A stretch of 64,000 nt of DNA from Synechococcus sp. MIT S9220 (GTDB lineage: Bacteria; Cyanobacteriota; Cyanobacteriia; PCC-6307; Cyanobiaceae), in contig NZ_CP047958.1 of assembly GCF_014304815.1 (NCBI RefSeq), positions 62,001 to 126,000 of the forward strand. Direction: 5' to 3'. This document shows, piece by piece, positions 33,390 to 64,000 of this stretch. Both the position numbers and the translations under genes were made by a program. Numbering within the stretch: position 1 is the stretch's first letter; the number at the start of each line of letters is the position of its first letter. Below the pieces are notes generated by a model. It made no database searches. It was not told the origin of the DNA and was given only the letters and a program-made list of their open reading frames with translations.

Positions 33390-33455
33390 ATTCTCTCAGA
33401 AGAAAAAGATCTTCAATCTGTCTGAAAACAATAGTCGATTTATTTAAATAGTAAA

Positions 33456-61321: not shown

Positions 61322-62773
<1,452 letters not shown>

Positions 62774-62992
62774 TGCAGAGGCGGATTATTCCCTGCCAGA
62801 ATTTGTGTGCTTTGCTTTATGTTTTTTAAATCTAAAAGCCGCGTGCAATTAAATCACCTAATCTGTTCCTCGCCATGATTGTAGATTTTTATTTTTTTCA
62901 GGAAAAATTATCTGGAAATTTAACAATCTTTGATTTGCCGTTGTTCATGCTCATTGCGAGGGATTTTTCTATTACTTCTTGTGGTCAATACA

Positions 62993-63388
62993 ATGGTTTT
63001 TTCAATGTTTAAAATAATGCCTTTCCTGTACCTTTTGTCTTATGGAATAGTTCTCGCCTTTGGGCAAGTTCTTTTTAAAATTTCATCCAATCAAGTAGAT
63101 AATATTGATCTATTCTCGTTGGCTTCTATTAGTAAGATGGTTACTCAACCTTACTTTATTTTAGCATGTTTTGTTTATGGATTAAGTACACTGGCGTGGG
63201 TGGGAATTCTTGCACGTGTAAATCTTGCAATTGCATACCCATTTGTAATATCTACATCCATATTGGCAACATCTTTAATTGGAGTGTTCGCGTTTGGCGA
63301 AGAGGTAAACAGTTATACATTTGTATCCTATGGCTTGATTATCTGTGCTTTAGCAACTCTTTCGAAAGGCATTATTGGGAATGTCTAA
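62993..63388 (+). CDS. Small four-helix membrane protein, EamA/SMR-like
   Basis: 131 residues from ATG 62993; ATG 63005 is also possible, and the open frame reaches 62930. Four hydrophobic helices are clear, with FLYLLSYGIVLAFGQVLFKI, ACFVYGLSTLAWVGILARV, NLAIAYPFVISTSILATSLI and LIICALATLSKG. The third helix's AYP motif and the following VFAFGEE resemble the SMR/ArnE-ArnF/EamA superfamily, which includes flippase subunits for lipid-linked sugars. Base composition is strongly AT-rich, unlike every gene to its left. It overlaps the following methyltransferase by 8 bases. Confidence 0.75.
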   Translation: MVFSMFKIMPFLYLLSYGIVLAFGQVLFKISSNQVDNIDLFSLASISKMVTQPYFILACFVYGLSTLAWVGILARVNLAIAYPFVISTSILATSLIGVFAFGEEVNSYTFVSYGLIICALATLSKGIIGNV

Positions 63389-64000
63389 TTATATAGCCCC
63401 GAGACTAAATGGTATTGCAGAAAATCTTGCTCTTTATATAAGAAAAATTATTTATAAAAAAACCATAGGAGCTTTGTCGATCGATAAAACCTTAAAAGTT
63501 GGAGACCTAGGAGTGACAAGTGACAAAAGCAAGGATTCTAATTTCTTTGAGATGTTGTATCCTTACCCAGAGAATATTACTGCAATTGGTTTAGAAGATG
63601 CAAAGCATTTAGAGAAAATGTACCCTGGCCTGAAATTTGTTCATGCAGACGTGTGTAATTTACCTTTCCCCGATAAACTCTTTGATATTAGTTTTTGTTC
63701 GGCAGTAATAGAGCATGTTGGCTCTAGAGATAATCAATGCAAGCTTATTACTGAAGCCATGCGGACATCTCATATAGTTGTATTAACTACTCCTAACAGA
63801 TACTTTCCAATTGAATTTCATACGTTAACACCTTTTTTGCATTGGTTGCCAAAAAGAATATTTCGCACATATTTACGCATAATAGGCAAAAAATTTTGGT
63901 CACTGGAGGAAAACCTGAATATTCTTTCTGATTTTGAAATAGTAAAAATGCTAGAATCCAATTCCATAAATTATACAAAATATCATGTTCGATTGCTTGG
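63381..64000 (+). CDS. SAM-dependent methyltransferase (incomplete at window end)
   Basis: 206 codons are visible and the frame is still open at base 64000. The class I methyltransferase pattern is present but motif I is weak (LKVGDLGVTSDKS). Later motifs are better: ITAIGLEDAKHL, VHADVCNLPFPDKLFDISF, AVIEHVGS and VVLTTPNRYFPIEFHTLTPF. Proteins with this last block are common in polysaccharide and lipid-linked glycan clusters. The ATG at 63381 overlaps the stop of the membrane protein (ATGTCTAA), so the two are co-translated. The composition is AT-rich, consistent with horizontal acquisition. Confidence 0.8.
   Translation, partial: MSNYIAPRLNGIAENLALYIRKIIYKKTIGALSIDKTLKVGDLGVTSDKSKDSNFFEMLYPYPENITAIGLEDAKHLEKMYPGLKFVHADVCNLPFPDKLFDISFCSAVIEHVGSRDNQCKLITEAMRTSHIVVLTTPNRYFPIEFHTLTPFLHWLPKRIFRTYLRIIGKKFWSLEENLNILSDFEIVKMLESNSINYTKYHVRLL

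Follow-up and report, generated by a model that had tools for sequence, protein, structure and literature searches.

Gene content and composition of the region downstream of thiC

The window analyzed here is a stretch of 64,000 nucleotides, bases 62001-126000 of the one-contig genome (2.42 Mb) of Synechococcus sp. MIT S9220, and the sequence to its right was covered with 60 kb taken from base 124000 onward. Positions beyond 64000 are given in extended window coordinates. The left core flank of the region is the ORF of thiC (61370-62773, + strand). A TPP riboswitch (RF00059, 61216-61324, + strand), with 61.6 bits against a gathering threshold of 54.3, lies directly 5' of thiC and represents ordinary thiamine control. 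Directly past thiC the GC content falls from 0.55-0.60 to about 0.34. The AT-rich stretch occupies 62774-64000 of the window, extends about 3.1 kb beyond the window end to ~67100 and stops before UXS and tkt. Its total length is about 4.3 kb, after which the GC content returns to normal, as the sequence-only reading had anticipated.

The gene order is thiC(+), SMR(+), methyltransferase(+), GT2(-), 603-aa(-), UXS(-) and tkt(-), and the four cassette genes between thiC and UXS form two convergent pairs. The first encodes an SMR-family (ArnE/ArnF-like) small membrane protein, predicted from family profiles to be a polyprenyl-phosphate-sugar flippase. Its longest ORF (62930-63388) begins with TTG, and comparison with homologues makes the ATG at 63008 the likelier start (63008-63388, + strand). 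On the same strand this ORF has an 8-base overlap, noticed earlier, with that of a class I SAM methyltransferase (63381-64034, window part to 64000; PF08241, 7.1e-08). On the minus strand follow a GT2 glycosyltransferase (64048-65181; PF00535, 1e-26), in line with the expectation of such a gene further right, and the ORF of a GT-C-like protein of 603 amino acids, so classed from a modelled homologue (65262-67073). UXS (67301-68290, - strand, GC 0.48) encodes a homologue of UDP-glucuronate decarboxylase (UDP-xylose synthase), identified by its close match to solved UXS (4.8e-127 to human UXS1 chain 4gll). The next gene, tkt (68370-70379, - strand; Pfam and NCBIfam), is the transketolase that had been predicted after thiC.

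The earlier 60-base counts were exact, with 30 G+C of 60 at 62521-62580 in thiC and 14 of 60 at 63421-63480, but such counts are not distinctive: 43 windows before 62774 have 14 or fewer, with a minimum of 11 at 33425. The drop that they were taken to mark is also found in 1-kb windows (0.341 at 63001-64000 versus a lowest value of 0.483 before 62774) and in tetranucleotide usage. In tetranucleotide distance the 1227-bp segment reaches 3.34, versus a mean of 0.14 and a maximum of 0.48 in 308 windows of the same size, and after removing base composition it reaches 0.477 versus a maximum of 0.349. GC content at third codon positions (GC3) is 0.64 for thiC and 0.68 for tkt, and falls to 0.27-0.31 for the four island genes. 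A tblastn search of the 122-kb stretch detected no further copy of any of these four, which agrees with the claim that the first two have no counterpart in the rest of the window. Promoter-like sites (16 in the interval versus 18.4 in shuffles) and terminator-like sites (6 versus 5.5) are not in excess.

No tRNA was found at the site in 30 loci, none of the four island genes matched a recombinase family in Pfam or NCBIfam, and none of the 8 chance-like repeat families reported pairs the two borders as a direct repeat. A tRNA- or integrase-borne island was therefore rejected.

A second, larger low-GC stretch (1-kb GC ~0.37-0.49) is present outside the window at ~162000-184000 of the genome, starting roughly 33 kb past the cassette on the same chromosome. 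The 10 ORFs scanned there include two GT2s, an O-antigen-ligase-like protein, an initiating sugar transferase, a carbamoyltransferase, GDSL proteins and a GT1. It is probably a main surface-polysaccharide locus.

Predicted functions of the encoded proteins

The SMR protein of the window, taken alone, scores 20.6 bits with the ArnE equivalog model, below its 92-bit cut-off. All 7 members of its family, in contrast, match ArnF (best 7.1e-11) as well as ArnE (1.8e-09). The drug-pump model EbrB matches 6 of the 7 relatives (7.9e-09) and the family profile also matches EmrE, but ArnF outscores every drug-pump model. A single-sequence structure model reached a pLDDT of 55, too low for a fold search. 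The matches thus point to a small SMR-type flippase as in three-component glycosylation systems, for the family as a whole and weakly for the window protein alone. They agree, as PF08241 does for the neighbouring gene, with the flippase-like and methyltransferase functions first assigned to the two genes. The Pfam scan found no match to the GtrA family (PF04138) in the cassette, which is thus no GtrABC system proper. The best solved relatives of the GT2 are dolichol-phosphate-mannose synthase (DPMS) and ArnC, and the DAD motif is present, suggesting a polyprenyl-phosphate-sugar synthase of the GT-A/GT2 type. UDP-xylose is a candidate for the cassette sugar since UXS adjoins, but UXS is found also without other cargo at 7 of 29 sites.

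The 603-aa protein belongs to no Pfam or NCBIfam family and has no sequence match in the PDB. A search of the genome contigs with the single protein returned no match. A profile search of the genome contigs detected homologues at 14 Prochlorococcus loci, 4 of whose records overlap with records already in the genome set, and relatives occur in 6 other genomes among the 400 of the family searched. A limited scan of viral contigs revealed no relative of this family, leaving a phage source of the gene unsupported.

A structure model was made of a homologue from the AG-412-I05 record, which is 34% identical to the query protein (pLDDT 81.5, pTM 0.87). Foldseek against the PDB gave 4 matches with E of at most 0.001, to ALG9 and OST, with query TM-scores of 0.37-0.42, and ArnT was matched with 0.46; these scores are modest, with an rmsd of ~5 A. 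With VIA-align the first 41 rows were all GT-C enzymes or complexes containing one, with Z from 17.6 to 9.4, and the next row had a Z of 4.2, values to be read knowing that unrelated helical proteins can reach Z ~13-14. These rows comprise ALG12/ALG9, ArnT (Z 15.9 over 434 residues, with 7% identity in the aligned part), OST/STT3/PglB/AglB (some as translocon complexes), PMT, GPI mannosyltransferase, the Emb/Aft arabinosyltransferases and DPY19, all of them enzymes of the GT-C superfamily.

Both alignments of the family show an invariant residue, D126, in an early loop. On a gap-free reading of the alignment ranges this residue presumably lies close to ArnT's catalytic aspartate. It is likely the catalytic residue. 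Four cysteines close to the C terminus are also invariant in both alignments, fitting an extracytoplasmic C-terminal part. The family thus appears, on the model of its homologue, to combine a GT-C-like fold with an acidic loop residue, as expected of the last enzyme of a three-component system. With such a fold in the modelled homologue, the cassette reads as a three-component set for extracytoplasmic glycosylation.

Variation of the thiC-tkt interval

Matches to both thiC and tkt were obtained in 29 of 31 congeners (query G000 included). Seven of these intervals are bare, 7 contain UXS only and 15 carry other genes. Seventeen of the 29 intervals, that of the query included, contain UXS. In G021 a shortened, stop-containing UXS remnant is found in the interval (L027, ~2063-2485) and a longer UXS match elsewhere in the genome; the remnant is a trace of earlier turnover at the site. 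A search of the 30 other congeners gave no 603-aa protein, leaving the query as the 1 carrier among 31. The presence/absence variation foreseen among relatives is therefore evident, and the finding that was to count against an island, the same genes after thiC in most relatives, did not appear: other intervals hold other genes, UXS only or nothing.

A multi-TM protein of more than 400 aa is encoded in 14 of the 15 occupied intervals (simple hydropathy count), a GT2 or UbiA gene together with a large multi-TM protein in 13, and a GT2 of the GtrB/DPMS cluster in 10. With near-duplicates in G008 and G025 and a single 90-aa ORF set aside, 54 of the 69 non-UXS cargo ORFs were scanned with Pfam, which gave 10 GT2 and 6 GtrA. 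The cargo has a lower GC content than thiC/tkt in all 15 intervals (median difference -0.14). Within the genus, different gene sets of similar function thus occupy one location, as in replacement islands; outside the genus this holds in part.

Some cargo is of other types. Between UXS and tkt, three genomes (G008, G016 and G025; loci L007, L008 and L009) carry UbiA, HAD, FAD/ALO and SDR genes plus GtrA, a set assigned by Pfam in G016 and by homology in the other two. This set resembles, in a cyanobacterium, a pathway for lipid-linked pentofuranose (arabinofuranose-like), and a related UbiA-type set occupies the same site in another genus (L116). The cargo of G021 consists of multi-TM proteins alone. 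That of G020 (L018) is different, with pyruvyltransferase-like, FrhB/FdhB-like and two sulfotransferase-like genes.

The site is also variable in the family. Of 131 family genomes searched, 10 of them of the query genus, 127 had thiC and 128 tkt; 109 were scorable on one contig and 18 were unscorable, and 4 had no thiC match. The two genes are a convergent pair with a gap below 40 kb in 106 of 109, and far apart in three. The gap is under 400 bp in 50 genomes, 400-1300 bp in 15 and 1.3-35 kb in 41, four of these last belonging to the query genus. From 20 of the 37 larger intervals outside the genus, 98 ORFs of at least 120 aa were scanned. They include 8 GT2, 6 epimerases, 4 DegT aminotransferases and 3 GtrA, along with peroxidases, solute-binding proteins, sulphur transporters and many others, and PADLOC matches are few. 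This mixed cargo indicates a general hotspot, partly devoted to glycans, and counts against a glycan-only site.

A thiC+tkt tree was built from 28 genomes, leaving out G020 (partial tkt) and the two without matches. The tree rests on two flanking genes that may themselves recombine, and gain is not separable from loss. The sister of the query genome, G013 (support 100/99), has UXS alone at the site. The label 'occupied' requires 9 changes versus a shuffled mean of 9.7, with equal or lower numbers in 205 of 500 shuffles; for 'UXS only' the figures are 6 versus 6.3 (243 of 500). The label 'empty' is clustered, its 3 changes being matched or undercut by 2 of 500 shuffles, and all three labels taken jointly require 9 changes (8 of 200). 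Occupancy is thus scattered, and the bare state runs in lineages.

The borders of the island were compared by eye. The thiC tail is near-identical in the six nearest congeners, and the last 13 codons before the stop deviate in G000. Five of the six (G013, G017, G025, G016 and G008) have a short spacer with an inverted repeat between the convergent ends of thiC and UXS, and G028 has cargo at this position. In G000 the spacer is lost and the last 29 codons of UXS deviate from the nearest congeners. The UXS tail deviates also in G028, the other genome of the clade with cargo between thiC and UXS. The ends of the G000 exchange therefore seem to lie inside both 3' ends, with the left breakpoint zone at ~62732-62773 (+ strand) within thiC. 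As regards substitution peaks left in the border genes by homologous recombination, what was observed among these congeners is the altered 3' ends of thiC and UXS. By eye, the new thiC tail of G000 is closer to that of G014 than to those of its sisters, as might be left by a donor with its own thiC-linked island.

The sequence-only reading had placed the edge of a transferred cell-surface island here. The foreign composition, the continuation of the island to the right and the altered border ends support the island and its transfer. The reading is corrected on two points: the island is small, with four genes in ~4.3 kb, and it sits in a recurrent hotspot that carries other gene sets in relatives.

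Relatives of the cassette parts at other loci

Neighbours of the 603-aa homologues were counted in the fetched flanks of the 14 Prochlorococcus loci, some of which end at contig ends. A GtrA-like gene was found by BLAST near 11, a GtrB-type GT2 near 10 and UXS near 9. These GT2s are 64-71% identical to cargo GT2s of the genus, and the UXS proteins 66-74%. At locus L055, the sole one scanned with Pfam, a UDP-glucose dehydrogenase adjoins, and the GtrA-like protein belongs to no Pfam family at 0.001. This link between UGD and UXS hints at UDP-xylose as the sugar source. In Prochlorococcus sp. AG-412-I05 a pair of 603-aa homologue and GT2 (L047, 7974-10496) has a GC content of 0.35 in surroundings of ~0.5-0.57 and is flanked by a fumarase-type lyase gene and a DSHCT-helicase gene; modules of this kind may have a further docking site there.

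The other part of the cassette recurs in genus g6. The SMR and methyltransferase genes adjoin in G173, G259, G331, G351 and G354, and G173 and G354 have a complete convergent GT2 gene next to them. In G331 a piece of the GT2 gene stands at the contig start, G351 has a shortened GT2 ORF, and the contig of G259 stops after the SMR and methyltransferase genes; G315 has SMR and GT2 genes without the methyltransferase. Identity to the query is 31-39% for SMR, 51-57% for the methyltransferase and 52-55% for GT2 (G173, G354 and G315). The G173 trio lies ~24 kb from thiC on the same contig, outside the thiC-tkt interval.

The next gene in G173 and G354 encodes a multi-TM protein (560 and 573 aa) that is 30-31% identical to the thiC-tkt protein of G028, whose family has a DD motif near the N terminus. 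Profile comparison detected no relation of the G173 and G354 proteins to the 603-aa family. A single GT-C family at all these sites was considered and dropped, since neither the G028-type nor the G014 protein could be linked to the 603-aa family by comparing profiles. The recurrence of the trio beside an unrelated large membrane protein makes the last-step enzyme look swappable, and one kept donor part looks, from these comparisons, to be joined to different last-step candidates.

A putative extracytoplasmic glycosylation cassette

Our preferred explanation, which we consider likely, is that the four genes form a cassette that adds a sugar outside the cytoplasmic membrane and that was recombined into the thiC-tkt hotspot in place of the thiC-UXS spacer. 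The cassette most likely follows the three-component scheme of a lipid-linked donor, its flipping and a GT-C transfer. The GT2 would transfer a sugar from a nucleotide sugar to polyprenyl phosphate, and the SMR (ArnE/F-like) protein would flip the polyprenyl-phosphate sugar. The 603-aa GT-C-type protein, with D126 as its likely catalytic residue, would then pass the sugar to a surface glycan or glycoprotein, and the methyltransferase probably methylates the sugar. This strain-specific cassette would have entered by recombination with ends within the 3' ends of thiC and UXS. The use of other flippase types (GtrA) by most cargo of the genus counts against this explanation. We conjecture that the polymer decorated by the cassette is the one made at the second low-GC locus ~33 kb away.

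More tentatively, thiC-tkt may be a family-wide docking site that holds, in the genus, usually one sugar-decorating module, its donor part (flippase, methyltransferase and GT2) and GT-C enzyme being exchanged independently between genera. Such a module would change the outer glycan in the manner of a serotype switch, independently of the main polysaccharide locus.

In marine picocyanobacteria, phage attachment and grazer feeding are thought to depend on surface glycans, and the many genes of the islands are mostly unassigned. Site-specific differences between strains in a sugar cassette may alter the recognition of the cell by viruses and grazers. The locus is small and well bounded, its four genes have a specific predicted chemistry, and its empty and occupied states are easily told apart, so that a clean genetic test is possible. 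An unnamed family, seen in this analysis in Prochlorococcus records and related picocyanobacterial genomes only, gains a predicted role as a GT-C transferase, and the thiC-tkt spacing is a marker for tracking the turnover of glycan genes in natural populations.

The best-surviving alternative, which we regard as rather unlikely, keeps the glycosylation cassette but gives it a periplasmic or envelope protein or a lipid as target, in ordinary physiology to which phages and grazers are irrelevant. GT-C enzymes do modify proteins, lipids and glycans, and the fold of the modelled homologue matches OST, PMT and ArnT alike; the high strain turnover of the site, typical of exposed structures in the available text of PMC4033161, is circumstantial evidence against it. 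It is improbable that the cassette is ancestral in this part of the genus and lost in relatives, its AT-richness being a property of such genes. Parsimony cannot tell gain from loss, bare sites are clustered on the tree and the lower GC content of the cargo is general in the genus, all of which would suit such losses. However, many of them are needed to explain the absence of the 603-aa protein from 30 of 30 other congeners, GC3 is strongly reduced, and the parts have relatives in other genera. In addition, the nearest congeners lack the altered border ends, save for UXS at another occupied site. A chance collection at a general insertion hotspot, made up of a multidrug SMR pump, a methyltransferase and two glycan genes without functional connection, would agree with the EbrB matches and the mixed cargo of other genera, but is highly improbable given the adjoining SMR and methyltransferase genes in five g6 genomes, the whole convergent GT2 in two of them and the better scores of ArnF.

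Comparison with known systems

Glycosyltransferase-rich islands of marine Synechococcus have been linked to the avoidance of grazers and phages (PMC2441476; see also PMC7522525). The present locus differs from them, as far as the available text of these reports goes, in its thiC/transketolase border and in its specific predicted chemistry. The thiC-tkt interval was not named in the titles and abstract openings of the literature searched, which covers few subscription journals. Surface loci of aquatic bacteria are swapped by homologous recombination, and in replacement flexible genomic islands one location carries different genes of similar, surface-type function between strains (PMC4033161, available text). 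The cassette, which has no recombinase, resembles these islands. In contrast to them it is very small, the cargo of the site outside the genus is mixed, and part of the cassette seems to exchange alone. Glycosyltransferase-rich islands, recombining surface loci and three-component systems are thus already known kinds; the family-wide thiC-tkt hotspot, the GT-C assignment of the picocyanobacterial family and the mix-and-match last step appear new as far as this literature reaches.

For the pentofuranose systems, Kelly et al. give a parts list of UbiA-dependent, lipid-linked pathways (PMC11127046, available text), to which the UbiA, HAD, FAD/ALO and SDR genes plus GtrA of G008, G016 and G025 correspond. 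The query genome differs in having a GT2 as the donor enzyme. Three-component transmembrane glycosylation, in which a lipid-linked donor is made, flipped and used by a GT-C transferase, is exemplified by GtrA-GtrB-Gtr(type) (PMC8035078, available text). As in these systems, a polyprenyl-phosphate-sugar GT2, a small putative flippase and a large GT-C-type protein are encoded together, and the last is of low sequence similarity to known ones, as Gtr(type) proteins are. Unlike Gtr systems, the cassette has an SMR/ArnE-F-like flippase candidate in place of GtrA, an additional methyltransferase, a GT-C family without a Pfam or NCBIfam name and an arrangement in two convergent pairs.

Flippases of SMR type for polyprenyl-phosphate sugars have precedents in ArnE/F (PMC7389260) and Rv3789 (PMC11127046), in the available text of both reports. 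The cassette departs from the Arn system (ArnC, ArnE/F and ArnT; aminoarabinose of lipid A) in missing the ArnE cut-off, in having no arn-type sugar-modifying genes and in the 7% identity of its GT-C family to ArnT. Like Arn, it combines an ArnC-related GT2, an ArnE/F-related SMR protein and a large membrane protein with a predicted fold near that of ArnT.
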